Assembly: GCA_015956445.1 (NCBI GenBank)
Contig: WIUZ02000007.1
Coordinates: forward strand, 1,240,001 to 1,304,000
Length of the DNA stretch: 64,000 nt
Source of the DNA: Thelephora terrestris
Taxonomy: Eukaryota > Basidiomycota > Agaricomycetes > Thelephorales > Thelephoraceae
Reading direction: 5' to 3'
Shown here: piece after piece, positions 10,538 to 62,924 of the stretch
Position numbering within the stretch: position 1 is the stretch's first letter
Layout: the number at the start of each line of letters is the position of its first letter
Program-made: the position numbers and the translations under genes
Notes under the pieces: model-generated
Database searches by the model: none
Told to the model about the DNA's origin: nothing
The model's input: only the letters and a program-made list of their open reading frames with translations

Positions 10538-10928
10538 CGTTGAATTGGAGAGCTTTGTAATTTCCCCTCTCTGTCTACAGGTCGCGTATCGGTTTCATCG
10601 AAAATTTTGATGTTTGTTTGTGATGGAACTTCTCGTCCCGGGGTTCTTTAGCAATAAGGAACAAACGTAAACGATGGCCGCGCCATTGCGGTGGTTCCCA
10701 TCACCACGTCGGCTATGGGTTTCCGCCACAGTTCTGCTGTGTGGGTCCAGAATGATTACGGCCTCGTGTCGACCATCTAGCCGGTGTGAAAGGGTGAGGC
10801 CTTGGGCCTTTAAAGTCCAGGGGGCCGTCCCTCTCAGCGCTCCTATCTCTGTCCTTCTTTCCCCCCTTCCCCACCATCGACATCCTCCACTCACCTTTGA
10901 CATTTTTGAAAAGAACTCTCAAAAAGCA

Positions 10929-15494: not shown

Positions 15495-16394
15495 CTTGTC
15501 GTGTTGCTTTTCGTCTGCGGTCTCTATTTTTCTGTAGTTTATGTTTTTGTTGACGCCCTCGTTCCAAGAAACTCCTCGAATGACCTTTTGAGGGGTAGGG
15601 TGCGCTTGTTTGTACACTGGGAATTTTTAATGGAAGCCACTCCGCGATGCGGCGTTCCCTAGTATCTCCAGAAATGGGTTATCTGCGAAGGGTGCTTCCA
15701 AGCTTTTCTGCCCTTCCGTTCTTGACTTTGTAACGACCAACCAGTGGCCCGCGATAGGAACAGGGGTTGTCTGTCTCAGGCATGGGTTCAAGATGTCGCT
15801 GCACACCGTGGGTAGATGGAGAGAAAAGTTTCTAATGCGGCCACAATTCTGGTGCGGACGGTACTTTGCGAGGAGTTTTTGCGAACAACGAACTTCAGAG
15901 GAGGAACGATCGTGGGAATTAGCCCAAATTACACTTTGCATTCTGCACACCGCTGATGATCTCCCGCTGCTGAAAATTTTGAGTCTTGTGCCCTCGAGCC
16001 CTCGCGCTGATCTTATGGAGCTTAGGGATTCGACACATGGCATGCATGGGCAATGGCACAGATACGGGAGGGCGAAAATCAAATCGCTCTGGTTGAGCAC
16101 TCGGCACCAAGTCGGTACGGCGGCTTCAGCCTGGCTCCGCTGGAGTTCACGTCAACCTTCAGCCATCTCATCTTCGTGTTCCTTATTGCTGGCTTGCTCA
16201 GGCTGGCTTCAAGTGTGCAGCGCCGTACGTGATTGGTGGCCCAAGAAAATCGACAGAACAAGAACGTCGGATTGAGCGCGACTAGGCAAAGGGTGGACTT
16301 CGCGAGGGGGGACGTCCGTGCGTCTTGACCCCCTTCGCTTCTCGCGATCTAGTGAGAGCCCACTTTTCTTTTTCGATTTTCCCCTCAGCTTTCT
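15495..16394. other. intergenic, no gene recognised
   Basis: The first 100 bases (TTCTGTAGTTTATGTTTTTG and the CCAAGAAACT stretch) resemble the 3' flank of copy 5 at about 22085-22150. No coding exon chain is seen in the rest. Confidence 0.45.
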
Positions 16395-18625: not shown

Positions 18626-18790
18626 ACTTGCCCGAGTACTGAGTACTGCCCGCCCAATTTTCTCATTCTCAGAATTCTGAATAACTTGGATGCATCGTCG
18701 CTTTCCAGCCAATCAGAGTCATCTGGCTAATCAGAGTCGTCTGGCCAATTCAGTAGCCACCCTCCCGGCCCCTTTCCAATTCATTCCTTC
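18625..18790. repeat. diverged copy of the promoter-side segment at about 6180-6300
   Basis: Both segments contain GTGAGTACTG or CTGAGTACTG, then AACTTGGA, CCAATCA and AATTCAGT.GCCACC in the same order. They precede DUF6535 copies 5 and 2. This copy carries a small internal duplication of the GTC.TCTGGC.AAT unit. Confidence 0.5.
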
Positions 18791-19093
18791 ACTATTGACA
18801 TCGCCGACTAGACATCCTTGGACGAATTCTCGGAAAATCATGGGCGCGCGGTGCACACATATGTACAACCATATGACCCTACTATCCACTAGTGCACTGA
18901 GGTTCACTAGGCCGCTCTAGGCAGTCCTAGTCCTATTAAATGCGGTGATGGTGGATGGGCAACACGCCCATCCTTATAGGTAGTCCGAGATAAGGTGTCA
19001 TTCCCCCAATCCCCTTGCTTCCTTACCTTTTTCTTGCATCCCACTGGGTGCACACTTTTCTTCAACACCCCTTCTCGCTTTTTGTAGCACACA

Positions 19094-22029
19094 ATGGAGG
19101 AACCGGCCATGAACCAAAAAGCAACTATAGACCCAAAAGCGTGTGTCCTAACCAACCTAGCTTCCCGCTCCAACCCTTTGTTGACCGCGCTTTTCGCTGC
19201 CAGTTTGGAACGTGCTGTGCAAAATGTGCTGGATAACTACTTTCCCCGCCTCGAATCGAACGACGATGCCCGCGCCGAGTTCTACAAAAAGTTCAAATGC
19301 GAAGCCGAAAAGTACGACAAGGACCTTTCGGAGAGATGCAGCTCAGACTTGGACACTGCCTCACTCTTCGTGTGTCTTCTTTCGTCTCGTGGGCTTTGGT
19401 GGTAATGCTGACCTGGTCCTTATGGGCAACAAGGCTGGTTTGTTCTCCGCAGTTACATCTGCGTTCATCGTCGCCGTGGAGACCAAGCTCGAACCGGACT
19501 ATACGCAATTGAGTTATAAGGTTCTTACGGTTATTGCCGACGCCAACCTTGGAACAATTACACCTGGCCAACATCCCACTTTACCCCAATGGACTGGTCC
19601 CGATCCCACTCTCGTCCGCGTCCAAAGCATCCTTTTCTCAAGTTTGGCCGCTTCCCTCCTCTCTGCATTTGTCGCCTTGCTGGGAAAGCAGTGGCTCAAT
19701 CGCTACTTCCAGGTCGATATGCGGGGAGCCCCCATCGATCGCAATCGAGCTCAACGGCGCAAGAGGGAAGGGATGACTACCTGGAGGTTCAAACTCGTCA
19801 CGGAGAGTCTGCCTCTAATGCTCCAAGCCTCTCTCCTCCTTCTTAGCTGGGCCCTTTCCGTATACCTCTTCACTGTCAACAGCCTGGTCGCCTGAGTTGT
19901 CGTCGGTTTCACCGGGGCCGGTTTCGTTTTCCACTTGATCACCGCTTTCGCCGCCACCGTATTCTACGACTGTCCATTCCAGACACCTCTCTCCTCCATA
20001 ATTCGCTCCATAATTATTCTCTACCCAATGCGCAGGGTGTACCTCGATAAATCTAGCAGATGGCTCAACCGCATGTTGCGTCGAAAACGAGGGCAGAGGA
20101 GGCGAGGACCCCGTCGTGTTGCAGGCCCTGACAGGCCCGACAGGAACAACGAGATTGACCACTTCGAGCTGTACACCGATCCGCCTCATCTCCCGCCTGT
20201 GCTGTTCGATCTGGGAACCGATCGGTATAGCCATGTGTTGGATGCCAAGTGTATTGTCTGGACGTTCGAAACGTTCACGGATTCAGATATCATCCCGTGT
20301 ATCACGAAGTTCATCCCCGAGATCATCTGGCACAACGGCATCCAGACCACCCCGCTGGAAAGACTTTACGACACCGTCGTCGAATGTTTCGATCATTCAT
20401 CCGGAAAACCCGTTGTGGCTTCGAAGCTCAGGGACAAGGCCTACTCCAGTGCCAAGGCTCTCCCCCACATCGCTGTTCAACGCAAGTGCATGGCCGATGA
20501 ATCTGACGCGGGCGTATTCGCTTACATCTCATACCGGCACGCGGAGAACATCGGATCCACGTATTTCAAGGGAGACCCAGACCTGGATTCTACTCTCGGT
20601 ATGATAGATCGCGTCTTCCTAGACCGTATCGAGTTCGAAGCGATGGACTGGCAACAATTATCTCTGACTGATTCCCATCGTACCTGGATGAGTCGCGTCC
20701 TCCTCTCCCTCGCCTGGGACGCCATCGGGAAAGGCCAACCTTTGCCTACAGATGTCCAGGCGTTTGTGCGTCACTCTCTTGGACTCGTGCCTCCCCCACC
20801 TGCACAGACTGTAAGGGACTGCCTATACGTCGTGGAGCTGATCCTCAAAACCAGTTTGGAAGACGATAAGCCCCATGCCATCGATATCGGGTCAGTTGAA
20901 TTTGCACGAGTATTTTCCGGGATGAAGCTAAATCTTCCTGCTGTCCCCCATATTCAGCCCTCAAATCGTAAGGATCTATCAGAATCTTCTTGGAACGTTC
21001 CAGAAAAACAACCCTACCCCCACTGAGATTGACCGCGCCTTGGAAGCCATGAGCCTCATCTCTCCGCTCTCTAACCAGGAAGTCGCTGCGAAGAGTTTCG
21101 AACTCTTCTACGTTATCATGCGGGCTCCCGTCCCTTCCGCCTACTCCGGCAATGCGTGGGAGGTGAAGAAGTGGGAGGCTTCACGTCTCGCTTTGCACGG
21201 CGCATACAAGTGGGATGGGGCCTTGCCGGAGGTCGAGGATCCTCAAGCCATCCTTAACTTCTTATGCCATCACTTCGAGTTGGCGTTGGTCAAAAACGGA
21301 AAACCCCAAGATGAGCCGATTCAGGATGCTTTGCATGCACTGGCGTATGCCTCCACTTCCAAGGCCATCGAGACCATCGAGGAATTCGACCCGACCCGAC
21401 CCTCTTTTGTCCACGGTATCTGCTTCGCGTTCCAGGACAAGCGGTCCAGCAAACTCCACAGGGCTGCTCTCTTCTTCCTTCGTCTTATCGCCAAGAATTG
21501 GTTCAGCGCTCCTGGCGCGATCATGACGCCCGAGATCACCAAGAGTTTGTGCGTAGATTGGGCCTCCGCCGTCGACGAATTCCACTCCGACTCCCACGTT
21601 CAAAATGTGGCTCTCGAGGTCCTCTTGGATATGATGAACTCCTCTCACTGGTGTCCTCACATCGTCCCGAAGAAATGGAGATTGTTGGAACGCTTCATCC
21701 CGGCGGTGCCGAGCGGCGTTGAGCCTTTGGAGAGGTGCCTGGGTAACGTGGGGTTGATAGGGGAAATCTCGAAAATGAAAAACACAGAAGCGATGACCCT
21801 TTGGTCAACGATTTTATGGCTGAAGTATGCCGAGTTGGAGCGTGAGGTTCAGGAGAAGTTGGAGTCGGTCACGAAGGTCGTCGACAAGTATCTGCCCACA
21901 GTGGAGTCGGCGTATGAGGAGGCCAAGCGGAGGAATGGTACATGTCCCAATGACACGACGTTCGAGAAAACGATGGAAAACCTTGAAGCAGCGAGGAAGC
22001 GCTTGAATTGTCTCAAGGGGGGTCACTGA
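19094..22029 (+). pseudogene. DUF6535 copy 5, mosaic, with one in-frame stop
   Basis: Exons 19094-19140, 19204-19369, 19434-20890 and 20958-22029 join in the same phases as the other copies (914 codons including the final stop), but codon 19893-19895 is TGA where the other intact copies have TGG in the NLVAWVVVGF segment. Everything else is open, so the stop is recent, or the gene makes a short 227-residue membrane fragment. The first part (METHIONINE through the second membrane segment) follows copy 2; from roughly 19930 onward it follows copy 3 (AVQRKCMADESDA, PQIVRIYQNL, DRALEAMSLISPLS). This pattern fits recombination or gene conversion. An assembly error at the stop cannot be excluded. 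Confidence 0.75.
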
Positions 22030-22733: not shown

Positions 22734-22940
22734 TTAAACGAAACCGATCACGGGTGGACCGGGATAGAGTGATATCGATCCGGTTCGCGACCACTGGACT
22801 TATTTGCGTTTAGGTCTGCTGATTTCCAACTTCATCAGCGTTTCTACTCTCTCCTATGTATCAGTAGATTGCCGTAGATCTCAATATAATTTTTTCCCTC
22901 ACTAAGATCGAACGTGAGCGAGTGTGATCTATTCAGATCT

Positions 22941-23126
22941 AACTGGGGTCGACGCCTGTCGGTTCTGTTCTAACGGGGCTCGACGCCCATCTATTTTGTT
23001 CTAATGGGGTTCGACGCCAATCTATTTTGGTCTGATGGGGCTCGACGCCCGTCGATTCAGTTCTAATGGGGCTCGACGCCCATCTATTCGGTTCTAATAC
23101 AGTTCGACGGACATCTATACTATTCT
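22941..23126. repeat. 31-bp minisatellite, six units, subterminal in the CACTA-like element
   Basis: Six units start at 22941, 22972, 23003, 23034, 23065 and 23096, exactly 31 bp apart. Each carries TGGGGYTCGACGCC followed by a pyrimidine-rich half (ATCTATTTTGTTCTAA in the best units). The last unit is degenerate. The position, 240-425 bp inside the left terminus, fits the subterminal binding repeats known from CACTA elements; that role is inferred. Confidence 0.85.
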
Positions 23127-23318
23127 ACCTACCCGCCCACACCTCCTCCTAGAATATACACTCGGACGACTTTATTGTTTCCTTAATTCGGTCTGTAGAA
23201 GCACGACATCAGATCAATGACATAATTTTAACCGAAGCGACGAAGACATACCAGTTCTTTTGCGCGGGTTTCGTACACCTCAATGAGATCAAACGGCGGC
23301 TGTCAGATAAGATAAGAT

Positions 23319-43976: not shown

Positions 43977-46838
43977 TCAACACACAATCGGAATACGGAG
44001 AACGTCAGAACAACAGCACCTGTCTTGCCTTCGCCTTTTCGAGACCTGGTTTGTGTCCCGCAATCTGATATAACGGAAGGACTGAGCACCAACGTGAGCC
44101 GATTCGATAGATGTACGTACGTCGATCCTTAATGACACAGAAGCCCCGGCGCCCCCCTCCACGAACATTGGGTCGTCGCGGTCATCTAGGTGACTGTAGT
44201 TCATATTCATGGCGTCGGTAAGCCTAATCCCCTCAATTCCTTGTACAGTGAAATTGATGGGAGGCAGGGGCTTCCTGTTTCTCTGTTCGCTTTCGCAATA
44301 GTACTTGGTTTGATACACCGCCTCGAAGTCGGGGCGTCCCGAGGGTTTCAAAGAGTTCGCCTAGAATCCCGTGATCACCATTTACTACGGACGGGCGACA
44401 GTACCTTTTGGGGTGCCTACCGGAATGAATTCCAGGGTTTCGGGGTCCTGGGGTTTTTTCTCCCGCTTGGGTCTCTTCATGCCTCCCAGTCCTATCTCGT
44501 ATGGGGTTGGCAACTGCTCCCGCTTGTTTCCGTCTACGCCGGCTGAATGGGAAGGTGAATTGTCCGAGAGCCCCTCTTCATCGACCCCACGAAACCTCAT
44601 CGGCAATACCCAGCCCTGGTTGAAGGGCATTTGGGGTTCCGTTGAAGACCATTGCTCCCCAGGTTCATAATCCATCGGGGAGTCCAGCCTCTGGGGCGGG
44701 TGCTGATATTCAAAGTGGGACTTATCCGTTATGGTGCCATCCTGTGCTTGGTGAATGTAACTGATGAATTGTACCGGAGAAGGCTGCGGAATATCCGTTT
44801 GGGGGTACATCGCCTCGAAGTCGGGGCGTCCCAAGGGTTCGGAAGAGTCCGCCTAAAACTCCGTGGTCACCATTTACGAACAAGCGACGGTACCTTTTGG
44901 GGTGCCTACCGGAATGTATCCCGGGGTTTCAGGCTCGTCAAGATCCATCGGTGTTGCCTGAGTATGGTCGAAGCGCGCCTGGGGTACCGTGATAAGATGA
45001 GGGGATTGGGACGTTCCTTCGAAGCTTGAGAACCATCCCCATCGATCCTCCCCATCGTCGTAGTTCAGCCCCTGGGGCGGGTGCTGATATTCGAAGTGGG
45101 ACTTATCCGTTATGGTGCCATCCTGTGCTTGGTGAATGTAAGTGGTGAATTGTGCTGGCGAAGGCTGCGGAATATCCGTTTGGGGGTACAGGTGTAGTTT
45201 TGAATGTGAAACGGGATGATAAGGAGGCGGATTTGCGACGTCATCTAAAATCAGTCCTCGGGCCTCTATCTCTGGATCCCGGCCAGGAGGGGGATAAGAT
45301 GCGCCGACCGCTTGATCTTCCAACATGTCGCCCAGGGTCCCGGTGGTTGTGAGATGCTGAGAATCTGGGATAGCTGGAGGGTACTATAGGATGGCACGGT
45401 TAGTGTATGAGGAATGAATGGAAGGTGAACTCACACTTACGGGGACGGGGCAACTCTTCCACACGATGTCCATCCCAGGAGAAGATGGCACCGATAAATT
45501 TGAATAAGTATCCAAACACCGCAAAACGTCTCCAACACCCGGACGCTCGCCCGCTCGAGGTGTCCAACATCGTTCCAATATCGTCCACAAACCATCGGTG
45601 AACTCCACGCCGCGATCAGGAAGTTCACCGTTCAACACCTTAAGCATAACTGCCCAGTCCAGCTGGTCTTTATGGAAAGGGGGTTTTCCACTGATAGTTT
45701 CGTATATGACCATTCCGAGAGCATAACAGTCCGAAGGTACCGTTGGGCTGCTGGCATCCAATCCAAACTGTTGCGGATTGAGGAGCTCCGGACTCATCCA
45801 TCGGACTGTGCCACCCTGCGCATGTGAACTTGAATGAAATAGGCTTGCAGTGTTTGAGATGATCGTAAGAAAACCGAAGTCTGCCAGGAGGGCATTGCCA
45901 GTTTGGTCGATCAGTATGTTAGCCTGCACGGATGGCTAAGTAAGATGGGAAAACAGCTCTCTACATTGAAAACGTACCCCCTTTAAATCCCCATGAATCA
46001 TCCTCTGCTTATGAACGTAGATCAATCCCTTAGCAACGCCTCCAAGCTAGCCATCCGATTGTCAAAAAACTAAAAGTGAAGAGGGAGAGTGGAATTCAGA
46101 GCGAGACGCGTACCAGCTTTAGCCGATTTTTATCTGGGTTTTCTTTCACAAACTCGTTGATGTTACCGTTATTCATCCATTCCGATACCATGACAAAATG
46201 AGCCCCAGACGTGTTTACTCCTATCAGCGGCAGAACATGGGGGTGCTGGAGGGTCTTCCATGTTACGAACTCCTTGCAGAACATCTACACAGGGAGCTGT
46301 CAGCACTCATACACGCGGAAGCAGAGCACAGTAAATCACTCACAGCGAATACCTTCCTTAAATCACTCTTTGAGCAGGTCCTTATGACCTTCACAGCAAT
46401 CTCCTTCCCGCAGTGTTGTCTCTTATAAACGTCCGCATACCCACCTGAATATTCCGGGCCGCCGTCTCGGTCGTAGCAAATGAAAACCTCCAAAGATCTT
46501 GGAATAAGTTTGTGGTGGCCGCACGTTTTGTAAAGCTGTCTGAGACAATTCGCACGGGTCCTCGATGGGAGATCGAACCGACCTAATGTCTGGCTCATCG
46601 ATTGTGTTGATATGTACTCCGGTGGACACATCGATGACAATGTAGAACGTACCTCGTCTGCTGCATCGATAAAGGCTTGCGCGTCGTCCTTGCTGAGGCA
46701 ACGAATCGTGTCAGTCAAATCGCTACGCTCGAAGATTGTCTCAATCAATAGCGGGAGTCCATCAGGGGAACACTCGGATTTGATGAAACGGCGTAAGGCT
46801 GGAAGGCAAAATTTAGAGAGGAGTGATGAGTACCTCAT
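43705..46838 (-). CDS. TKL-like protein kinase with a duplicated C-terminal exon
   Basis: Eleven exons: 46653-46838, 46344-46589, 46114-46284, 45978-46046, 45441-45923, 44910-45383, 44421-44852, 44121-44360, 44020-44064, 43872-43964 and 43705-43815. All ten introns are phase 0; the sum is 849 aa. Kinase motifs in order: glycine loop YSGGYADVYKR, lysine EIAVKVIR, helix-C KEFVTWKTLQHPHVLPLIGV, hinge MVSEWMNNGNINEF, catalytic loop MIHGDLKGANILID (G in place of R in HRD), LADFGF, GGTVRWMSPELL, SDCYALGMVIYETISGKPPF, ERCWTPRAGERP. Two similar exons follow (both with YPQTDIPQPSP and FEYQHPPQ), then RDDPMF, GPITRQRLGHDVAKIIKRHL and SWQPELW. HGDLKG is usual for this mushroom kinase family. A further 5' exon may exist: the ATG at 46838 is the first in frame, but an upstream frame (to 47010) could not be joined in phase. 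Confidence 0.8.
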
Positions 46839-47476
46839 AAGATAGTTGGCAACGAAGGATCCTACCGATCTCGGATACGGGGTTCATGGCGGCGTCGCGG
46901 GAGTCAACGGGCGGGGATTCAGAGGGAGGTTGGCCCACGCCCTTGTTTCCGTTGCTGGGTGAGCTCAGGGCGTTAAGGGTGCCGAGCATCTTTGAGCCTC
47001 TGGCTTGCAACTCGTACTTTTGAGCTGGCAGCCACGCCTCGACCTCGAGTTTGATTTGAATGTGAGCTGGGCGATATCGATGATCGCAACTTAAGTTACC
47101 CGGAATTTTGCGCTAGGACTTGCCTCCGTATTGATTAAGGGAATCACTGGTCGCATGTTGCGAGTGCTCTTTTGGTTGCCGTATTCCTACTTATAAGTTA
47201 GAACCGTTCCAAACCACCGACGCTGGCACTCGCTCACATTAATGCTCCCAAACAGAGCACTGAGGGTCGTGCTACGCGACAGACCGTGCAGTCGCTCGAT
47301 TCTCACCTTTTTGGGGCTGAAGCTGGGCTGAACCTCTGAAACCGACGACACGGTTCCCGAGACCGGCCGGCCGCCGAGAAACATCACCAAACACAAAACG
47401 GAGGCCGTAGGCCATGCAGCTTGACGCTTATGTAAGATATCAAACGATCACCGACAGTCAACCGGAACCATTCAAA
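46839..47476. other. upstream region of the kinase gene
   Basis: A - strand frame at 46813-47010 (MQARGSKMLGTLNAL) could be a 5' exon but does not splice in phase. The rest shows no gene and ends at the TA that borders the palindromic element. Confidence 0.4.
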
Positions 47477-47478
47477 TA

Positions 47479-50400
47479 CTGTAGGCGCACGACCACTCCG
47501 GCGGTCAACGGTCAACACCGGGCCTGCCGCTGCCGTCCCGCGTCTCGGTCAACAGTCAACACCGAGACTGCCGATATTACAAAGCGGCGGTCAACAGTCA
47601 TCATGGGGGTGGGCGCCAATCCTGATTTTCGGCGCTTAACGATTTTTTTTCGATTTTTTTTTTCCCTCTCTGTTGTACAATAACATGGTAACCTACTGCC
47701 TATTGTCAGACTTGTTGCCAACAGGGCAGAACCATGTATATATAATATTTTTGGAGCTTGGTTTGAATTTGGTTCAAGCAAGACTCAGTAATGTGAAGAC
47801 TGGGCCATCATGTGGAGCATGGTTCTTCGGTTCAATTGAGGGCATATCAGAGAAAATGGAAATAGTGGGGTGGGTACAGGAGGCTATCTAATGGATACTA
47901 GATTAGGGATACTGTATGAGCACAGTCACTTAGGCAGTCATCTGCCATCACCAGACTACCAATGCTGCTGAGTGGTGGGGTTTGTAAGGTGAAGAGGAGA
48001 TATCACAGCAGGGTACAGAGTGTGAGGGTCATGAGGCACAAAGATGAGTTGTATGGCAACAGAGATCATAACACTAGAAGCACGAGAGGACATGAGAGGG
48101 ATAAACTGGGTGGTGAGGTACAAGGGGAGAATGGGAAGAGCATGTGGAGACTACTACAAAAAAGAAGTTGTATCTTACACACAACATTTGACCTATAATT
48201 ACAGGTTCATTCATAATTCCATTCCATCCACATCTTAGTGGCGTCCTTGATCAAGAAGTCTTTTCTTATGTATATGTCCAGATTGAATCCTGAGCCCCTG
48301 TCTTCAGTGTCTGATGCATCTGAATCATCCTTTTTGTCTGCATAGAGATCAGCAAGGGAATCTGCTGGGACTCTCTCAACAACATCTTGAACTGCTTCGT
48401 TGATCGTCTTGGATGAATCAATCTCATCATAGTAGACCCCTCCCCCATTCCCATCAGTATCCCCCTGATCTGTTTCTTCATCCCCACCGTCTGCCCTTTT
48501 GAGGCTCTTGTAGAACTCTGGATCTGTGCTGATCCGTTCAAAGAGAAGCCTTCGTGCTTCTCTACTAGTCAAACTCTCAAAGGAGAGGTTGAAGTTGCCC
48601 TGTCCAGTAGAACAAAGCTGGAAGGCCTATGGGTTTTATTAGATAAGTGTGATAAACTTGGAATACATTTAAATATCACCTTTTGAACAAGATCAGGGTT
48701 GTCAATTGCCTTATACCCATTCACCAGCCACTTGACAGACCGATTTCGAACTAGGGGAAGCCCTTTCTCAAATGTCACCATGCTTGGTTCAGTTCCCTGA
48801 GCCAGCTGTTCCATGGTGTTGTTGATAATGTCCTGAAGGGCAGAACGCCTGATTGCAAGCTTGAGAACTCGCTGAATCCCAACGTCACATGGCTGGAAAA
48901 GTCCTGTACAATTTGCTGGGACATAGTGAATTCTGATCCATGGGTAGGTGGTGTACATCCAGTGACGGAATTCCTCTGACCGATGGACAGACCAACAATC
49001 AATCTGCCAAATACAAGTCTGTCTGTGGTCTTCCCTATGGAGTTCAAAGTAGGGGACAAGGATGTGTTGGACATAGCTCTGCATGGTAGACAGTGTTGAC
49101 CAATGGTTGGCTCCTCCAGACTCAAAGCGGAATTTCAATGTCTTGGTGGCCTCCTGATAGTCAGGGGCATCAGGTGTTGGCAATGAACGAGAAGTGGTCC
49201 CAGCATAGACAGCCTGGAATGGTAGAACATCTCCACCCATTGAAATCCCCACAACAACTGTGAATCCCCGCTTCTCATCCTTTCCAACGACCTCAACTTG
49301 TTTTGACCCTATGGGAGCATATGTTTCCGAGGCACCAGCAGCATATATGACTAGTGTCTGGTCAGTGTTGACGGTGAGTTTGATGGAAACACCATCTTCA
49401 GAGATCGTGTGGACAAGGCGGAGGAAGGCGCTGGTAAGAATGTATGTGACACCATCTGGGACTTTCTTTCCAGGACGGGTAGATCGCCGAAGTGACCACT
49501 TCATTTCTTTATGAAGAAATTTTCGCACAAAAGATTCTCTACAATGGAAATGATCCCAAATGTAGCGATTGCGAACCTTGCAGACAACTGATGCCTCGAA
49601 GATCTGAGGGGCCCTTGCAGTGATGATGCCGATCATAACACCACAAATTGATGTAAGGCCAAGCCGGACAGAGGTTGCACGAAGTGAAGTGAGGGTGATT
49701 TTGATCTCAGAGAGCAAATCAGGATGATTGTTCTAATCTGCATCAGTAATATTTCTATACATCATGGGTGGAAGACTCACAAATACATTGAACCGTGTTT
49801 GATCACCGCCTGGAAGAAATCCCTTCTGAACCTCCAAAAGTGTTTTTTCTGACTAAACAATTTTGTTCTTCTGTGACTTGTCACGCCAATCACTAAGCCT
49901 CTGATGTGTGAGAAACCTGAACCATCTGTCCCGACCTTGAAGGGTTCGAATGAGTTCAGTGAGGTTTGGTTTCCCAATCTGTTCCTTGGCTGCTTGGTCA
50001 ATCATTGGCCAGAATGTTGGTGTCTTCCAGTTGATGTTCTGATTTTCTGCAGTATCATGTTTTGAAGGTTTGTATGGCTGACCAGCTTTTTCCTTGTCCT
50101 TACGCTTGAGTGCTGAGACAATGGCTTGCTTTGGACGTGAGGAAGTGGCAACTTCCAACCGAGTTGGGGCATCAATATCAGGTGTAGATGCTTTCTAAAG
50201 AGATATGAGTTTGAGACCAACATTATTCAACACAAGGGACTTACAGAGGGAACTGGTTTTTCTGCCCTGAGCCTACTCCTCCGCTTGCTCTGAGAAACTC
50301 TGTATTGTTCACGCCTACGGGCTTTTTTGTGAAGCTGTTCTGCATCTTCCTTCTTTTTCTGTTTCTCATATTCTTCTCTATCCTTCTCTGCATCCTCTCG

Positions 50401-52944
50401 CTTTCTCTTCCGCCACCTTGCATGGAATTCATCAGATGGGATTTTTGAGAAGAAATCAAGTAGGCTGGGTTGTTTTGCTGCCTTAGTAGAAGAGGGAAGG
50501 AGGACTTCAGATTCCGAAGCCCATGCAGAGCTGGATTCTGATGGAAAAGCAGATGTGGGAGGCTCATCAACAGGTGAGTCATAGGGGTTGGGACTGGCAG
50601 AAGAATTGTTGGAATTGTTGAGTGAGTTCTCAGCAAACCAACTGGAGATGGGTGAGGGGTGACTTGGAGAGTGTGTATCTTCACTAGTAGAGAGCTCATG
50701 GGGAGTGGACTCCTCAAGCTGAGGGTAGTAGAATGAGATCTGGGAAGGGGGGTCAACCACCACTTCCTGTGATGGAGGAACCAGAGGAGTGTTTGGTAGT
50801 GGTTGGATAAAGACAGGAGGGGAGATAGTGGAGAGGCTGAATGGGGTTGTTGTATTATTGCTTGCAGTCTGCCACATTCAGTTAGCTATATTTATATAGA
50901 GATATTTCGAATGAGGATATACTCACAGCACCTGCTTGAAGAAGTTCCAATGCAATTTCCAACCGATAATGTGCCAGGGAGGGAGGATCAGGTTGCAGAA
51001 GAGGGATGTCTTGTGGAAGGGAGTAGTGTCCAACGGCATTGAGTGCAAAGAGACCACATGAGTTAGGGTCTGCTTGAATCATTGTTTCCAATGGATATAT
51101 GGAAATATCTGACTCTGGGATCATCTGTCCAGACCGACTAAGCATGTGACGTATCCACCACCGGAAACGAAGAGCCTTGTCAGATGGTATAGGATTTCCA
51201 AGAGAATCCCCATAGAGGATTCTTGGTGGACGGAAATTGACAACCAGCGATGTCCAATGGTTGGGAAGGTGTAGACACCCTGCAACACTATCAACAAGGC
51301 CATTGATGATATTGTTCTCAACCTTGAGAAACTGTTTCCGCTTATCTTTTGTATTTCCACTGGGCACACTCCCATTGTATGCCTTGATGATAGAATCAAT
51401 GTCTGTAACAGGAAGAAATACATGGCGGCCAGAAGCCTCGGTCCCATTGCGATCACGGTAGTTGTTGGAGATTTTCATGAGGCCATAGTCAATATGAAAA
51501 TCGCTAAGCCATGAGTCTGTGAGAATGGACACCATGTCGTGAACTGTACACCGTCTCCCGTTCCATGGAAAGAGTGTTAAGCCTGCCACCACTTGGTCAC
51601 TGATCCCAGCCAGTAACTCTGACTGTGAGTTTTCCCTCAGCCACACCAGCGCCCTCTTCCAATCATGGCGATAGATTACTGCACGACCAATCTCTCTCCA
51701 ATAGTCTAGCACCCAGGTGGGGAACCTGACTTGGTTGCCAGATGGATTAACCAGGGTGAAGGAATGGATGGGGGGTGAGGCAGCCTTGATGGCAGCCTTG
51801 TAGTGGTCAATGAGTTGCCGTGATGGAGGGCCAAGCTGGAGGAGGATCTCTGGGTCAAAATCCATAACTCCTTCTCTGTGCAAAAGGTGGCCAAGGTTGG
51901 CATAGGTGTAATAGAGCATGGGTGGCGGTGGGTATCTTGTAAACTGGAAGAGGTGGGGGACAGACAATCCATCTGGCAGTATCCAACTTCGTTTGATATC
52001 CTCTGGTAAGAAGACATCCACAGTGAGATCAATGATCTCAGATGACATATTGGAGGCAGGGTGTGGGGGGTAAGGATGTGTGGGGGGGTATGGGTGTGTG
52101 ATGGTAAGGATATGGGTGGTTTGGACAGTGCAGAATGCTGGGGGGTGAGATGTGCTGCACTAAAGGAAGATTAGCTGATATTCTGCTCGTATTTGTCAAT
52201 GGATGGGGCCATACAATGTCTCCAAGGCTGCACAAGGGTTGGTAGGAGGGCCAGGAAGCACCAGACTACACAAGGTGTGTGGGTTTTGACTGGATGAGCA
52301 GAGATCACAGTTGTCAAGCAGAAGAAGAGCAACAGTGATGTCAAGCAGAGTTGAAGGGCTCAGTTCCAGCCAATAGATGTGGGTTTTGAGCTTAGGACCA
52401 GAAAAGATAAGACAGAACAACACTGCAGGCTGGCAGTGTACAAGAGAGGAGCAGATTGTACGAGTTTTGAGCAGAAACTCGAGTTCTGGGTGATTTCTGC
52501 AATCGTTGTACCAGTTTTGAGTGGAGGACAAGTGATTTCTTCAAGGAGGTTGTCAGAGGAGGGCAAGAGGATGATGTTTCGCTCGAAAGTTGTGCGGCGA
52601 TAAGCGATCAACATCGGCGGTTGAGCAATCAGCAAGTGCTCGAATTTCGTGCAGTGTCCCTTGTATCATTTTAATTATTATTAATTATCTTAGCTAACAA
52701 TTAATTTAACACCCCCAGGGCTGCCAAATGCCCCTGCCTCTGCCAGCAAGCCACTTGAACATCGCCAGTGACGAGGAACCACCCAAGGAGGCCGCGTCAT
52801 CACGGTCGGGTCTGCCACCAGGGCCGCGTCATCGCCTCGAAACCTGCCAGCTAAACCGGCAGGTCAACAGTCAACACCAGGGTTGCCGGCGCCTGTCAAC
52901 ACCCTCGGCAACTTCCGGTCGCCGGAGTGGTCGTGCGGTTACAG
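47479..52944 (-). mobile_element. Ulp1/DDE DNA transposon, left copy
   Basis: The outer end starts CTGTAGGCGCACGACCACTC; the inner end, reversed, starts CTGTAACCGCACGACCACTC. That is a 25-bp terminal inverted repeat with two mismatches. TA stands outside both ends (47477-47478 and 52945-52946). GGTCAACRGTCAACACC repeats lie just inside both ends (about 47507, 47547, 47590, 52860), probably transposase-binding sites. One gene, on the - strand. Confidence 0.8.
48207..52048 (-). CDS. fused Ulp1-type protease / DDE transposase, left copy
   Basis: Mirror image of the gene at 55137-58978, with exons 50927-52048, 50245-50868, 49781-50194, 48680-49732 and 48207-48626. The products differ at one residue that I can see: Pro here, Thr in the right copy, in the basic region RAEK(P/T)VPS. 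The same in-frame TAG (49853-49855, - strand) interrupts the third exon in both copies. Domain description is under the right copy. Confidence 0.7.
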
Positions 52945-54240
52945 TATTTTTTCGATTGCTCTTTTATTTTTTTGCGCTGGCCTTGCTCGGCCTCCAGCAG
53001 GTCAACCACCCAACGTGTCCGCTCGATTTTTATGGCGTTGTAATGGGGCTGCCGAGTACTTTTAGGTGACGATGAGGTCTTCATCAGCAACATGGAATTT
53101 TACTTATTTCAGACTTGTTTCAGCCTTTTCCGACTTTTTTTGCCTTTTCCGTAACCTTTAGACTTATTTTCTAACTTCTATAAGTTTATGTCCTAAGCGC
53201 CCTGCCATTTATACCACAAAATCTGTCAGATTTGGCTGGTGGGAAAAATAAGTTGATTTCCCTTTTGCTGATGTTTTTAAAATTCGAAGTTTTAAATTTC
53301 ACAATTGTCCGACTTATTCTGCGTTCATCTCCTCAACACTTTTGTTTTTCCGCTTCGGGTTTTTTTCAGCGGTATCTGGGAGGTTCACACCATCTTTCTA
53401 CGTTGAGGTTTTGAGAAACTCTCGTCTTCCATCTGACAGCCGCAAGGCTGTTGCAATGTTGATCAAAAGGGTGGGGATATCATGTATTCCCATGGATTGA
53501 AGGGGGTAAAACATCGTGTATAAGGGAATCATGAATTATCCTGCATTCACCTGTAAGATATCTCATTTGGTTTCAGCGGTGGGATTTGTCGTGAGTAATT
53601 GCGATTAGCGCCAACTACGGATAACGTGACCTGCTGGGTTTCGCGGATCAATGTCACATCACTGTCACTGTCAGGCCGCAGAGCCCAGGCCCGCAGCCTG
53701 CCGGGTCACGTGACCTAGAACCAGTGCCGGCCACCTGCCTCCCACGATAGCCTCGTTACACCTTGAAAATTAAAAACCTCAACGTAGAAAGATGGTGTGA
53801 ACCTCCCAGATACCGCTGAAAAAAACCCGAAGCGGAAAAACAAAAGTGTTGAGGAGATGAACGCAGAATAAGTCGGACAATTGTGAAATTTAAAACTTCG
53901 AATTTTAAAAACATCAGCAAAAGGGAAATCAACTTATTTTTCCCACCAGCCAAATCTGACAGATTTTGTGGTATAAATGGCAGGGCGCTTAGGACATAAA
54001 CTTATAGAAGTTAGAAAATAAGTCTAAAGGTTACGGAAAAGGCAAAAAAAGTCGGAAAAGGCTGAAACAAGTCTGAAATAAGTAAAATTCCATGTTGCTG
54101 ATGAAGACCTCATCGTCACCTAAAAGTACTCGGCAGCCCCATTACAACGCCATAAAAATCGAGCGGACACGTTGGGTGGTTGACCTGCTGGAGGCCGAGC
54201 AAGGCCAGCGCAAAAAAATAAAAGAGCAATCGAAAAAATA
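52945..54240. other. centre of the palindrome: two 468-bp flanks and a 360-bp spacer
   Basis: 52945-53412 and 53773-54240 are inverted copies of non-transposon DNA, AT-rich, with repeated ACTTATTT / GACTTATT strings and a run TTTTTAAAATTCGAAGTTTTAAA near the inner edge (a small palindrome around TTCGAA). The spacer 53413-53772 contains no gene; it has GGTCACGTGACC-like sequence (CGGGTCACGTGACCTAG, about 53702). ACTTATTT strings also occur near 62960-63040, beside the Plavaka-type gene, so the flank may come from another transposon. Confidence 0.6.
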
Positions 54241-57200
54241 CTGTAACCGCACGACCACTCCGGCGACCGGAAGTTGCCGAGGGTGTTGACAGGCGCCGGC
54301 AACCCTGGTGTTGACTGTTGACCTGCCGGTTTAGCTGGCAGGTTTCGAGGCGATGACGCGGCCCTGGTGGCAGACCCGACCGTGATGACGCGGCCTCCTT
54401 GGGTGGTTCCTCGTCACTGGCGATGTTCAAGTGGCTTGCTGGCAGAGGCAGGGGCATTTGGCAGCCCTGGGGGTGTTAAATTAATTGTTAGCTAAGATAA
54501 TTAATAATAATTAAAATGATACAAGGGACACTGCACGAAATTCGAGCACTTGCTGATTGCTCAACCGCCGATGTTGATCGCTTATCGCCGCACAACTTTC
54601 GAGCGAAACATCATCCTCTTGCCCTCCTCTGACAACCTCCTTGAAGAAATCACTTGTCCTCCACTCAAAACTGGTACAACGATTGCAGAAATCACCCAGA
54701 ACTCGAGTTTCTGCTCAAAACTCGTACAATCTGCTCCTCTCTTGTACACTGCCAGCCTGCAGTGTTGTTCTGTCTTATCTTTTCTGGTCCTAAGCTCAAA
54801 ACCCACATCTATTGGCTGGAACTGAGCCCTTCAACTCTGCTTGACATCACTGTTGCTCTTCTTCTGCTTGACAACTGTGATCTCTGCTCATCCAGTCAAA
54901 ACCCACACACCTTGTGTAGTCTGGTGCTTCCTGGCCCTCCTACCAACCCTTGTGCAGCCTTGGAGACATTGTATGGCCCCATCCATTGACAAATACGAGC
55001 AGAATATCAGCTAATCTTCCTTTAGTGCAGCACATCTCACCCCCCAGCATTCTGCACTGTCCAAACCACCCATATCCTTACCATCACACACCCATACCCC
55101 CCCACACATCCTTACCCCCCACACCCTGCCTCCAATATGTCATCTGAGATCATTGATCTCACTGTGGATGTCTTCTTACCAGAGGATATCAAACGAAGTT
55201 GGATACTGCCAGATGGATTGTCTGTCCCCCACCTCTTCCAGTTTACAAGATACCCACCGCCACCCATGCTCTATTACACCTATGCCAACCTTGGCCACCT
55301 TTTGCACAGAGAAGGAGTTATGGATTTTGACCCAGAGATCCTCCTCCAGCTTGGCCCTCCATCACGGCAACTCATTGACCACTACAAGGCTGCCATCAAG
55401 GCTGCCTCACCCCCCATCCATTCCTTCACCCTGGTTAATCCATCTGGCAACCAAGTCAGGTTCCCCACCTGGGTGCTAGACTATTGGAGAGAGATTGGTC
55501 GTGCAGTAATCTATCGCCATGATTGGAAGAGGGCGCTGGTGTGGCTGAGGGAAAACTCACAGTCAGAGTTACTGGCTGGGATCAGTGACCAAGTGGTGGC
55601 AGGCTTAACACTCTTTCCATGGAACGGGAGACGGTGTACAGTTCACGACATGGTGTCCATTCTCACAGACTCATGGCTTAGCGATTTTCATATTGACTAT
55701 GGCCTCATGAAAATCTCCAACAACTACCGTGATCGCAATGGGACCGAGGCTTCTGGCCGCCATGTATTTCTTCCTGTTACAGACATTGATTCTATCATCA
55801 AGGCATACAATGGGAGTGTGCCCAGTGGAAATACAAAAGATAAGCGGAAACAGTTTCTCAAGGTTGAGAACAATATCATCAATGGCCTTGTTGATAGTGT
55901 TGCAGGGTGTCTACACCTTCCCAACCATTGGACATCGCTGGTTGTCAATTTCCGTCCACCAAGAATCCTCTATGGGGATTCTCTTGGAAATCCTATACCA
56001 TCTGACAAGGCTCTTCGTTTCCGGTGGTGGATACGTCACATGCTTAGTCGGTCTGGACAGATGATCCCAGAGTCAGATATTTCCATATATCCATTGGAAA
56101 CAATGATTCAAGCAGACCCTAACTCATGTGGTCTCTTTGCACTCAATGCCGTTGGACACTACTCCCTTCCACAAGACATCCCTCTTCTGCAACCTGATCC
56201 TCCCTCCCTGGCACATTATCGGTTGGAAATTGCATTGGAACTTCTTCAAGCAGGTGCTGTGAGTATATCCTCATTCGAAATATCTCTATATAAATATAGC
56301 TAACTGAATGTGGCAGACTGCAAGCAATAATACAACAACCCCATTCAGCCTCTCCACTATCTCCCCTCCTGTCTTTATCCAACCACTACCAAACACTCCT
56401 CTGGTTCCTCCATCACAGGAAGTGGTGGTTGACCCCCCTTCCCAGATCTCATTCTACTACCCTCAGCTTGAGGAGTCCACTCCCCATGAGCTCTCTACTA
56501 GTGAAGATACACACTCTCCAAGTCACCCCTCACCCATCTCCAGTTGGTTTGCTGAGAACTCACTCAACAATTCCAACAATTCTTCTGCCAGTCCCAACCC
56601 CTATGACTCACCTGTTGATGAGCCTCCCACATCTGCTTTTCCATCAGAATCCAGCTCTGCATGGGCTTCGGAATCTGAAGTCCTCCTTCCCTCTTCTACT
56701 AAGGCAGCAAAACAACCCAGCCTACTTGATTTCTTCTCAAAAATCCCATCTGATGAATTCCATGCAAGGTGGCGGAAGAGAAAGCGAGAGGATGCAGAGA
56801 AGGATAGAGAAGAATATGAGAAACAGAAAAAGAAGGAAGATGCAGAACAGCTTCACAAAAAAGCCCGTAGGCGTGAACAATACAGAGTTTCTCAGAGCAA
56901 GCGGAGGAGTAGGCTCAGGGCAGAAAAAACAGTTCCCTCTGTAAGTCCCTTGTGTTGAATAATGTTGGTCTCAAACTCATATCTCTTTAGAAAGCATCTA
57001 CACCTGATATTGATGCCCCAACTCGGTTGGAAGTTGCCACTTCCTCACGTCCAAAGCAAGCCATTGTCTCAGCACTCAAGCGTAAGGACAAGGAAAAAGC
57101 TGGTCAGCCATACAAACCTTCAAAACATGATACTGCAGAAAATCAGAACATCAACTGGAAGACACCAACATTCTGGCCAATGATTGACCAAGCAGCCAAG

Positions 57201-59706
57201 GAACAGATTGGGAAACCAAACCTCACTGAACTCATTCGAACCCTTCAAGGTCGGGACAGATGGTTCAGGTTTCTCACACATCAGAGGCTTAGTGATTGGC
57301 GTGACAAGTCACAGAAGAACAAAATTGTTTAGTCAGAAAAAACACTTTTGGAGGTTCAGAAGGGATTTCTTCCAGGCGGTGATCAAACACGGTTCAATGT
57401 ATTTGTGAGTCTTCCACCCATGATGTATAGAAATATTACTGATGCAGATTAGAACAATCATCCTGATTTGCTCTCTGAGATCAAAATCACCCTCACTTCA
57501 CTTCGTGCAACCTCTGTCCGGCTTGGCCTTACATCAATTTGTGGTGTTATGATCGGCATCATCACTGCAAGGGCCCCTCAGATCTTCGAGGCATCAGTTG
57601 TCTGCAAGGTTCGCAATCGCTACATTTGGGATCATTTCCATTGTAGAGAATCTTTTGTGCGAAAATTTCTTCATAAAGAAATGAAGTGGTCACTTCGGCG
57701 ATCTACCCGTCCTGGAAAGAAAGTCCCAGATGGTGTCACATACATTCTTACCAGCGCCTTCCTCCGCCTTGTCCACACGATCTCTGAAGATGGTGTTTCC
57801 ATCAAACTCACCGTCAACACTGACCAGACACTAGTCATATATGCTGCTGGTGCCTCGGAAACATATGCTCCCATAGGGTCAAAACAAGTTGAGGTCGTTG
57901 GAAAGGATGAGAAGCGGGGATTCACAGTTGTTGTGGGGATTTCAATGGGTGGAGATGTTCTACCATTCCAGGCTGTCTATGCTGGGACCACTTCTCGTTC
58001 ATTGCCAACACCTGATGCCCCTGACTATCAGGAGGCCACCAAGACATTGAAATTCCGCTTTGAGTCTGGAGGAGCCAACCATTGGTCAACACTGTCTACC
58101 ATGCAGAGCTATGTCCAACACATCCTTGTCCCCTACTTTGAACTCCATAGGGAAGACCACAGACAGACTTGTATTTGGCAGATTGATTGTTGGTCTGTCC
58201 ATCGGTCAGAGGAATTCCGTCACTGGATGTACACCACCTACCCATGGATCAGAATTCACTATGTCCCAGCAAATTGTACAGGACTTTTCCAGCCATGTGA
58301 CGTTGGGATTCAGCGAGTTCTCAAGCTTGCAATCAGGCGTTCTGCCCTTCAGGACATTATCAACAACACCATGGAACAGCTGGCTCAGGGAACTGAACCA
58401 AGCATGGTGACATTTGAGAAAGGGCTTCCCCTAGTTCGAAATCGGTCTGTCAAGTGGCTGGTGAATGGGTATAAGGCAATTGACAACCCTGATCTTGTTC
58501 AAAAGGTGATATTTAAATGTATTCCAAGTTTATCACACTTATCTAATAAAACCCATAGGCCTTCCAGCTTTGTTCTACTGGACAGGGCAACTTCAACCTC
58601 TCCTTTGAGAGTTTGACTAGTAGAGAAGCACGAAGGCTTCTCTTTGAACGGATCAGCACAGATCCAGAGTTCTACAAGAGCCTCAAAAGGGCAGACGGTG
58701 GGGATGAAGAAACAGATCAGGGGGATACTGATGGGAATGGGGGAGGGGTCTACTATGATGAGATTGATTCATCCAAGACGATCAACGAAGCAGTTCAAGA
58801 TGTTGTTGAGAGAGTCCCAGCAGATTCCCTTGCTGATCTCTATGCAGACAAAAAGGATGATTCAGATGCATCAGACACTGAAGACAGGGGCTCAGGATTC
58901 AATCTGGACATATACATAAGAAAAGACTTCTTGATCAAGGACGCCACTAAGATGTGGATGGAATGGAATTATGAATGAACCTGTAATTATAGGTCAAATG
59001 TTGTGTGTAAGATACAACTTCTTTTTTGTAGTAGTCTCCACATGCTCTTCCCATTCTCCCCTTGTACCTCACCACCCAGTTTATCCCTCTCATGTCCTCT
59101 CGTGCTTCTAGTGTTATGATCTCTGTTGCCATACAACTCATCTTTGTGCCTCATGACCCTCACACTCTGTACCCTGCTGTGATATCTCCTCTTCACCTTA
59201 CAAACCCCACCACTCAGCAGCATTGGTAGTCTGGTGATGGCAGATGACTGCCTAAGTGACTGTGCTCATACAGTATCCCTAATCTAGTATCCATTAGATA
59301 GCCTCCTGTACCCACCCCACTATTTCCATTTTCTCTGATATGCCCTCAATTGAACCGAAGAACCATGCTCCACATGATGGCCCAGTCTTCACATTACTGA
59401 GTCTTGCTTGAACCAAATTCAAACCAAGCTCCAAAAATATTATATATACATGGTTCTGCCCTGTTGGCAACAAGTCTGACAATAGGCAGTAGGTTACCAT
59501 GTTATTGTACAACAGAGAGGGAAAAAAAAAATCGAAAAAAAATCGTTAAGCGCCGAAAATCAGGATTGGCGCCCACCCCCATGATGACTGTTGACCGCCG
59601 CTTTGTAATATCGGCAGTCTCGGTGTTGACTGTTGACCGAGACGCGGGACGGCAGCGGCAGGCCCGGTGTTGACCGTTGACCGCCGGAGTGGTCGTGCGC
59701 CTACAG
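54241..59706 (+). mobile_element. Ulp1/DDE DNA transposon, right copy
   Basis: Same element as 47479-52944, inverted. The inner end begins CTGTAACCGCACGACCACTC after TA (54239-54240); the outer end closes GTGGTCGTGCGCCTACAG before TA (59707-59708). Confidence 0.8.
55137..58978 (+). CDS. fused Ulp1-type protease / DDE transposase, right copy
   Basis: Five exons (55137-56258, 56317-56940, 56991-57404, 57453-58505, 58559-58978), all in phase 0, total 1,211 codons with one in-frame TAG at 57330-57332. Residues 1-374 are a Ulp1/C48 cysteine protease with the full set: His264 (PNHWTSLVV), Asp281 (YGDSLG), Gln325 and Cys331 (DPNSCGLFALNAVGHY). A serine-rich linker and a lysine/arginine-rich coiled segment (EEYEKQKKKEDAEQLHKKA) follow, then a presumed helix-turn-helix region (FWPMIDQAAKEQIGKPNLTE), then a DDE_1-like nuclease: NTDQT (57822), QIDCWSVH (58185) and LFQPCDVGIQR (58299), with 37 residues between the second and third Asp. 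The C-terminus is acidic. The TAG stands where W would fit, so the transposase half may be dead unless read through or spliced around. The fusion may instead be two genes. Confidence 0.7.
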
Positions 59707-59708
59707 TA

Positions 59709-60999
59709 TGAGTGATCGGGCTGGGTATACTTTGTTTAACTTCTGGGAATCCGTCCTCGTAAAAAAGTTTTCACTTGAAGTGGTGCATTGCATGCTAGTA
59801 TCCCACATATATATACTCGTTAGACAATGTTCGGTCGTTATTCCATTTCCACCCTACTCACATAAACAACACTACTCTCATGAATCCTGATAAAGTGAGA
59901 AACCCTGGTCCACAGCGGCGCGACCATAGCAGGCCCTCCTCCAGTCCCTATAACCACCGCCTAGAGACCCATTCTGGGGCAACACGCGCAACGACCACTC
60001 GCTCTAGGTCGATTCAAGGCTAGCTCGGGCAAACCTTTCTCCACGCCCACCCAATTACCTCCAGGTCTGCCATTAACTCTTCAATGACGATACGCTGATT
60101 GTCCCCATTGTAGGCAAACGCAACAGACCACACACCTCTGCCCCGAGGATCGCTTCGACAAGTACCTTATGTCCCCGTCAGAAAACAAGGAGATTTCACA
60201 CCCGCGGAACCTGTCTCGTTCTCCATAAATGGGACTCCCGGAATCTCTGTTGCTCGGGCCATAGCGGAGGAGTTCACGGGGTTGGATGACAGAGACGAGG
60301 GCATTCCTGCTTTCGAGGGCAGCAAGATTCTCTGTCGGGCCCAGGCGGGCACCACAACGTTTCAGACAAGGATTTCTGGCAAACGTCATCTTTAGCTCAC
60401 TGGGCATGGTTTCTATACATCCAAGGCACGGGGCTTTTCACTAGGTTCTGCATTCTTTCGATTGATACGCCTGGCAGGTAAACACACGACGCCACGTTGC
60501 CAGGTGGACACCGATATCCCGTTGCAAACTCGCCAAGGAGATCGGGAAGAGGATGCGGGAATATACCGAGGCGAGCGTGTTCTCAAAGGGGTCTGGCTTA
60601 ACGGCCCCTTACTGTAGCAATTCTACCGGGAGCGAGGATTGGGTGGGAGTCTGGACTTGGAGGGGATATATTTGACCCGCTTGATGCTTACACGTTTCGA
60701 AGAGGTCCTGGCAGCCAGAATTGTTTTACGAAGATTCTATTTCCCCGGAATTCGCTGCATAGAATTTTGGTCGCCGCTTGATAATGTGGCGGTTTCTTGA
60801 ATGTTTTCAGTATGCGAATTGGTAGATCGACAAAGCAGATTGCTCAGCGCCGAAGAAAACTAGAAAACACCGTTCTTCGGGTTCAAAATTCCCACGATAC
60901 GCGCGTTGTATAACGATGAACGTTTTGACGGTACGTTTTCATGTTCGCCCTCCTGCGGATATCGCTGTTTCCTCGTTGTGGTAGTTCAAACGCATTCAT
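59709..60999. other. no recognisable gene
   Basis: Right flank of the palindrome. Only short unsupported frames, the longest on the - strand at 60081-60407 without family resemblance. Confidence 0.4.
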
Positions 61000-62924
61000 C
61001 GATTATGGTTCTTGTGATCGGTTGCAACTGTCTTTTCCAAGAGTTGTCAGACTACTAAACCAAATAAAGGAGGAATATCTCGCACCTGGTAAGGTCGAAG
61101 AGGTGGGCAATCGGAGAGTCGAGAAAATGGAACCAGAACCTCATAAGACTTGCATGCATTTATTCCGTTCTGGTTTCCTTCAAACGTCAGAGATGTGGTG
61201 GAAGTCCGGTATGCACTGCGTATTAACGCGTACCCGGTTTCGCTGTAGCGGAGGTGAAAATATTTCATCCGATTCTTCCCCTCTGCATATCGCGGACTCG
61301 CCCCAATCTCTACCGCTGTCGGGAGAGAGCGTCCCGTCATCTCTCCCATTTAGCCCTATATGTTCCCCGTGAGTTGACGAGCGAAATCCTGGGGTTTTAT
61401 TTGTGAAAAGCGAATAAATTATCTGTGGGTGAGATCTCCTGGAGTCCCGAGGTCTGAGCAACATGTGGGCTTATAAGCGGGTTAACTCATTTGCCTACAG
61501 ATGTGAAAGAAATTAGACTGGTAGGACTGGTGGCAGACCTATGGCTTACCGGGGGTTGATAACAATGGGATAGGGCGCACGCGGGGGATAGGGTTCCGAG
61601 GGACACCCGGAGCGGGCATACGTACACAGATTTCTCTCTTGGCGCTATCGGGGGCCGAAAGGCGTGAGGGAGGATTTGCTGGAGCCCTTCGAAGTTTGGT
61701 ACGAGGCCAGTATGGGCGACGGTGGACGGTGGTGTACGAGCAGGATTTTACAGAGGCTTGCAGAGGGGGACTATTACGCGGGAACGCGCATTTGGAGTTC
61801 CCTAGAGTCTTAAGAAGCTGTCATAATTCGCATTAGTTGCTCGAGACCGCCATAGCTGAGATACCGGGTCCGCGTCCATGGGGGGTCGCAAAAGCGGCGC
61901 TGGATTGACGAGGGTTTGGGTGAAGTGAGTCTCGGCTGTTGCCGCAATAGGCTCAACTTGAACACCACGAAGAGATGCACCATATCGAATGAGTGGATTG
62001 GGGTGTCCGATACATCGTCCAACACTTCCATGACCTCGAGTAGCCGATACGACAAGAACCGCGGAGGCCACTCTCGGAATGGGTAGTTCACATGTTTGCG
62101 AAACCCACCGATCACGCCCCTTTCTTACGTTCACCAATCCACATGTACAGACTCACAGAGCGCTGGGCAGAGAGCAACACGGGATCGCCCCAGGACGCTC
62201 CGCGATATTGTTTCGCCTGACCTTGCCAGAACCCCTCCCGGAACAGTCATTCCTGTTCGGACGGCTCTCTTCTAATGTACTTTTCCTTATCACGGACGCT
62301 TCTGACGGAATACCAGGGCAATTGCAGTAAACGTTTCCCATGGCCAAAAATCGGACCTGTGCTCTTGATCTGTTCGTTTTTTGTGCTTTGTTCGTGGAGA
62401 AACTCCTTGAAGGCCGGGAACGCCCGGGTCACGGATACTGAGGTGTTCCGTACGTATAACAAGCCCTATAACATCGAAGAATAAATGTGAAAGTGAAAAC
62501 AAAGCATCACATATAGCATCATGGCTGTACGTGGGCTGGAATCTTTACATGAATGGTTCCTCCAGAGGTTTATAAATGCATACTGACGTATCAGTAATCG
62601 AGGATACAAACGAACGAAAATTAATGCTCGGAACATAGGGACCACTTTAAGAAGTTGTGGAATTCGAAGCCTCGCACCACAGCTCCGGTTGCCAGGAGGC
62701 GTTGGAGACGTGGTGAAGCCTTACGAGGTACACACTTTCAAAGGGTACTTCGATCGGGCTCCCCTTTTGAACGCCGAGTCAGTTGAGGAGGCATTTTAGT
62801 GACCTCGGTATTATCGTACCTCGAGATGTCGCTTGATGATCTTAGCGACGTCGTGTCCCAATTTTTGCCTCGTGATTGGGCCCCGATTTTTCTTGTGGTT
62901 CATGGTCGGGATCTAATGCAGTGT
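61000..62924. repeat. segmental duplication, copy 2 (about 1.9 kb, direct)
   Basis: Aligns with 42040-43976 in the same orientation. It ends abruptly at CAGTGT (62919-62924), where the AT-rich DNA next to the Plavaka-type gene begins. In copy 1 the kinase gene continues at that point. The duplicated frame RAFPAFKEFLHEQSTKNEQ is at about 62360-62425 on the - strand. Confidence 0.75.
62650..62924 (-). pseudogene. last two exons of a second kinase gene copy
   Basis: THKKNRG-type helix sequence (GPITRQKLGHDVAKIIKRHLE) at about 62820-62910 and LVRLHHVSNASWQPELW at about 62680-62735 match exons 10 and 11 of the kinase gene. The kinase domain itself is absent. The duplication, or the insertion of the neighbouring transposon, removed the upstream exons. 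Confidence 0.6.

Follow-up and report, generated by a model that had tools for sequence, protein, structure and literature searches.

A 12.2-kb near-perfect palindrome with like transposon ends at both borders in Thelephora terrestris, a candidate product of alternative transposition

A near-perfect palindrome of 12.2 kb is found in the genome assembly of the fungus Thelephora terrestris (40.6 Mb, 60 contigs). It lies in a window of 64,000 nucleotides (C58:1240001-1304000; positions given without a contig name are those of this window). The palindrome consists of two mirror-image copies of a transposon, here called T, each followed on its inner side by DNA that formerly flanked T, with a short spacer in the centre (Table 1). 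The structure is confirmed, as it is known from the assembly. As for its origin, we see about an even chance that the palindrome, read in the assembly alone, is a composite insertion made by alternative transposition in which two like ends of T were used.

When the interval was compared with its own reverse complement, the arms (47477-53412 and 53773-59708) were found to pair as reverse complements, with a single mismatch and without indels. The paired stretch reaches one base further out on each side (47476-53412 and 53773-59709), giving 5,937 positions, and this outermost pair (A/T beyond the border TA) may be due to chance. The sole mismatch, G at 50256 against A at 56929, alters a codon in the 216-amino-acid (aa) open reading frame (ORF) of T, which encodes proline in the left arm (P208) and threonine in the right arm. 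An arm pairing of 5.9 kb with one mismatch needs no chance estimate; with so few differences, either the palindrome is recent or its arms have been kept alike by gene conversion. The arms were the only inverted pair found in the window by a repeat finder (exact 20-base seeds, minimum length 60). The same end of T points outward in both arms. On the outside, the symmetry ends at the terminal repeats of T (plus the one base), and the outer flanks match neither each other at the borders nor the arms. On the inside, the symmetry breaks at a point that is no element border. The original prediction had described arms of equal length with one substitution and no indels around a unique 360-bp spacer, a complete TA-flanked element on the outside of each arm with unrelated DNA on the inside, and differing outer flanks at which the palindrome stops, at the outer terminal repeats beside TA. 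All of this is borne out.

Artefactual palindromes are generally known to exist, and long reads are required to connect the flanks across arms of 5.9 kb. As the structure is known from the assembly alone, it could stem from a fold-back read or from a wrong join via the repeated element, arising in the assembly or in the library. A fold-back read, however, would also mirror the outer flank, while here two different flanks start at the terminal repeats. For a wrong join to borrow, no other near-identical T, flank, or spacer was found in the genome, and the two arms differ by a codon-changing base. We consider an artefact very unlikely.

Table 1. Coordinates of the palindrome, its parts, and the right-flank segment in the window
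Feature	Position	Strand	Remark
Near-perfect palindrome, outer TA to outer TA	47477..59708		
Transposon T, left copy, TA to TA	47477..52946	-	ORFs read toward left flank; outer end is the gene-distal end
Transposon T, right copy	54239..59708	+	ORFs read toward right flank
Former flank of T, left arm, 466 bp (468 with TA)	52947..53412		
Former flank of T, right arm, inverted copy	53773..54238		
Spacer, 360 bp	53413..53772		Single copy as far as searched
PlavakaB-like MITE, 192 bp	53082..53273 (left arm), 53912..54103 (right arm)		Exact reverse complements
Ulp1-type cysteine protease ORF, 388 aa	50882..52048, 55137..56303	-, +	Pfam PF02902, E=2.9e-5
216-aa ORF with basic stretch	50227..50877, 56308..56958	-, +	Carries sole arm-to-arm difference
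DDE_1 transposase ORF	48569..49717, 57468..58616	-, +	Pfam PF03184, E=2.8e-10
121-aa ORF, after transposase	48207..48572, 58613..58978	-, +	
Right-flank segment R	59707..61001		One paralogue found, C56:37599-38908

T is 5.47 kb long and has TA on both sides. Its outer terminus, TACTGTAGGCGCACGACCACTCCGGCGGTC, is identical to the inner terminus at 26 of 30 positions, and both outer ends of the palindrome are the TACTGTAGGCGC end. TA adjoins all four ends of T in the palindrome (the inner TA of the left arm is 52945-52946). Read outward from its inner end, T carries the Ulp1-type protease, the 216-aa ORF, the DDE_1 transposase, and the 121-aa ORF. The transposase ORF has D119, D240, and D278, with 37 residues separating the second and the third; we take these to be the catalytic residues of the family motif. 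H264, D281, and C331 of the protease ORF presumably represent the arrangement of a Ulp1-like triad. The 216-aa ORF has only a weak match in Pfam (CCDC47, E=0.076). No helix-turn-helix or CENP-B domain was matched in Pfam by the uninterrupted ORFs of 101, 111, and 121 aa, and no solved structure was matched by the sequence of the DDE ORF at E up to 1. In the excerpted text of PMC7325037, IS630-Tc1-mariner and pogo-like elements share with T the TA duplication, the DDE_1 domain, and a DDD motif with 37-residue spacing. While Tc1/mariner elements are described there as being about 1.2-1.3 kb long, T is about 5.5 kb and has an ORF for a Ulp1-type protease. No name for an element combining DDE_1 and Ulp1 was found among the matches listed from the open-licence literature of PubMed Central (PMC).

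The former flank of T includes a miniature inverted-repeat transposable element (MITE), which begins with CATCAGCAA, ends with TTGCTGATG, and has TT at each side. In the genome, 14 other long copies of this MITE were listed, as well as shorter pieces. The ends were inspected in six copies. Five of these have a duplication of 2-3 bp, and none was seen in the sixth (L011), whose match begins 2 bases inside the terminus. We call the MITE PlavakaB-like because its ends and the size of the duplication agree with the description of PlavakaB transposons in an excerpt of PMC12730594 (CATCA..TGATG ends, 2- or 3-bp duplications). This MITE family was probably active not long ago, since 10 of the 14 copies are 97-99% identical. 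As for the flank itself, its MITE has its own TT on both sides, and the 466 bp were for this reason native chromosomal DNA, that is, ordinary DNA of the host species or of a close one, before the palindrome arose. When the flank without the MITE and the spacer were used in a genome search, no second copy was found.

The T family duplicates TA on insertion. The evidence is a solo degenerate relative of 8.4 kb with both termini (C23:2005355-2013738), which is found within a tandem array and splits one of its units with TA on each side. To the left of the relative the array sequence is ...aataacaTA, to its right TAtttggaaaa..., and the undisturbed unit reads aacaTAtttgg. Because TA stands beside every terminus of the family, TA at the borders of the palindrome is expected from one event or from two, and it is no proof that the 12.2 kb moved as a unit. 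TA is present at both borders, as the original prediction had it, but its weight as evidence is less than was implied there.

Relatives of T in which protease matches lie near DDE matches are found at three places: on C27, at C23:2006-2013 kb, and at C12:3227-3230 kb. The protease pieces of the C27 relative are 56-67% identical to those of T in amino acids, and its DDE pieces 75-77%. It looks inactive, since stops interrupt its counterparts of the 216- and 121-aa ORFs and N replaces the third D. A genome-wide pattern search, in which the T terminus was allowed to differ at up to 3 positions, found 15 matches: four in the palindrome, two in an inverted pair on C23, and nine elsewhere. This inverted pair (C23:2606878-2607655, L050/L051) has arms of about 245 bp that are 91% identical and a 293-bp spacer. 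Each arm has an inward-facing T-type terminus (24/25) with 54-57 bp of mirrored flank up to the spacer. The pair may be what is left of an older palindrome of the T family. It was considered as a second composite and is taken as a hint rather than as a second case, because its likeness to T spans only about 27 bp of the terminus.

The joints of the palindrome are of two kinds. The symmetry breaks at terminal repeats on the outside and at no element border on the inside; the outer joints look like the work of a transposase and the central joint looks like repair or a fork error. We favour like-end transposition between sister copies at a replication fork, which would explain the outer and central joints in one event as well as the shortness of the mirrored flank. 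At the donor site, T would have stood beside the 466-bp flank, followed by the spacer. In S phase, when the fork had just passed T and a further 0.5-0.8 kb or so, the transposase would have paired the gene-distal end of T on both sister copies and cut there. Both cut ends would then have entered one single TA. The two inner arms, whether joined or broken at the fork, would have been closed onto each other, and since these were unequal (466 versus 826 bp beyond T), the 360-bp spacer would remain. Here we infer the sister origin, the S phase, the single target TA, and the way in which the centre was closed. The pairing of two like ends of T would be plausible because the two termini are nearly alike. 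In its full form, the proposal is that a TA-inserting DDE_1 transposase pairs like ends on sister chromatids at a live fork and makes, in one step, a palindromic macrotransposon carrying donor DNA; in this form we offer it tentatively, as a possibility that we somewhat doubt.

Alternative transposition is best documented in maize Ac/Ds and, in the excerpts available, is mentioned also for snapdragon, Drosophila P elements, and Arabidopsis VANDAL21. When maize elements transpose while the DNA replicates (S phase), the resulting insertions have transposon ends on the outside and fused former flanks on the inside (PMC4270019, in part). The Composite Insertions of maize, which arise by transposition of reversed Ac ends and re-replication, and the palindrome of T. 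terrestris both have the form of a macrotransposon, with ends outside at a duplicated target. In both, the interior is former flanking DNA with a new joint, here the 466-bp flank and its MITE in mirror image. According to the same excerpts, the maize insertions are bordered by the 5' end of Ac and the 3' end of fAc and bring together two different flanks, whereas the palindrome has the same T end on both outer sides and the same DNA in both halves; the target duplication is 8 bp in maize and TA in the T family. The comparison with plant composite insertions made in the original prediction is apt, but it passes over this difference between 5' plus 3' ends and two like ends. The palindrome may thus work like a Composite Insertion, and we do not class it as one because its borders are two copies of one end.

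VANDAL21 of Arabidopsis is a Mutator-like element and belongs to a transposon group other than that of T. A head-to-head pair of VANDAL21 resembles the palindrome in having close inverted copies and a short unique spacer of about 200 bp (PMC12312487). Rearrangements of this pair, which are somatic events, are attributed to alternative transposition in the excerpted text, which describes no mirrored former flank like that of the palindrome. Four papers on fungi (PMC6679389, PMC4905642, PMC11540331, and PMC9370660) contain, in the passages available, general remarks on alternative transposition and no described case. No palindromic like-end composite insertion was found among the matches listed from the open-licence PMC literature.

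Several points count against like-end transposition as the origin of the palindrome. One is the difference just described: the borders of the maize composite insertions are two different ends and those of the T palindrome two like ends, and acceptance of two like ends by the T transposase is assumed. Another is that the donor locus was not found in this assembly. The original prediction had pointed to a solo T beside the inner flank as the donor to be sought in the genome, and the search found none. It was made with the flank and spacer, and a second round, at E up to 10, used what lies past the MITE; it matched the palindrome itself, MITE copies, and one terminus on C2, and nothing else. Moreover, no second copy of the 12.2-kb unit, by which a macrotransposon would be recognised, was found in the genome. 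The main rival explanation invokes two steps, in which a fold-back or template switch at the donor fork (origin-dependent inverted-repeat amplification, ODIRA, or breakage and fusion) produced an inverted duplication that then moved as a macrotransposon by its outer ends. The final structure would be identical, and inverted duplications with a short unique centre are known to arise by fork closure or by fold-back at short interrupted inverted repeats (PMC4689423, in part). The yeast inverted duplications of this kind share with the palindrome a fork error, an inverted repeat, and the short unique centre. As far as the excerpt goes, they are without transposon ends and have their junctions at short interrupted inverted repeats, while the outer joints of the palindrome are at terminal repeats. 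Two rare events would be required, and the trace expected at the donor is not found in this assembly, although it may exist in other strains. We regard this two-step origin as unlikely.

The remaining points concern the outer flanks. An empty site, in which the left flank runs through TA into the right flank, was not found in the assembly. For this comparison the flanks were joined computationally and compared with four loci (C56:35000-44900, C58:1304001-1314000, C58:1314001-1322000, and C58:1232001-1240000), none of which joins the left flank to the right flank. In the genome searches with the flanks, the best 40 of 47 candidates were scored for the left and all 3 for the right, and the lack of a match is no proof of rarity. 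The left flank has a paralogue at C58:1310374-1312289 (85%), which ends about 55 bp short of the border. The right-flank segment R is 85% identical to its paralogue overall and 88% across the first 593 bases, and the homology starts right at the border TA, apart from one additional base that matches by chance. The DNA upstream of this paralogue is unlike the left flank, and its 2,496 bp matched only itself in the genome search. Because the paralogue stops at TA and does not continue into the left flank, the two flanks may not have been neighbours.

It is therefore conceivable that the palindrome was rearranged in place: T would already have stood beside one flank, and an inverted duplication, an adjacent deletion, or a one-ended event would have joined the other, the two flanks never having been neighbours. 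The paralogue of R, whose upstream DNA matched nothing else in the genome, fits such a history, as does a second homology break at the far end of R, which ends abruptly near 61000 where a copy (60995-62924) of the segment 42034-43976 starts. TA would be present at every T end regardless. However, the paralogue is 15% diverged and thus far older than the near-identical arms, unless gene conversion has acted on these, and a transposase normally cuts two ends. The DNA upstream of the paralogue is also unlike the inner flank of T. We considered it as the donor site and found no support for this, as alignment scores of its last 150 bases fall within the range of 200 shuffles: -19.5 against the left flank (shuffles: mean -29.6, highest -15.0, so that the score lies in their upper part) and -25.0 against the inner flank (shuffles: mean -28.6, highest -11.0). 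A rearrangement in place appears quite unlikely. The composite transposon of the original prediction stands as to its mirror arms, its TA-duplicating family, and its native inner flank; its transposition as a unit would be a candidate reading, and only one copy was found.

Other features are found in the window on the left side of the palindrome. Among ORFs of 100 aa or more, the nearest (46263-46838, minus strand) has no Pfam domain, and its start is 638 bp from the left border. The next one on the minus strand (45384-45929) has a protein-kinase domain. Up to four diverged tandem copies with a unit of about 5.7-6.6 kb, probably a gene family, occupy 1466-21453. A 31-bp tandem repeat with 6.5 copies and the core GGGCTCGACGCCC is found at 22927-23127.

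The palindrome is one unreplicated event, seen in the assembly only. If the like-end case is true, alternative transposition would extend to another superfamily, that of a TA-inserting and probably fungal element, and it would account for some of the large palindromes that adjoin transposons. T would in that case be an element that makes palindromes naturally, and the spacer at the centre of its product would be a record of uneven fork movement.

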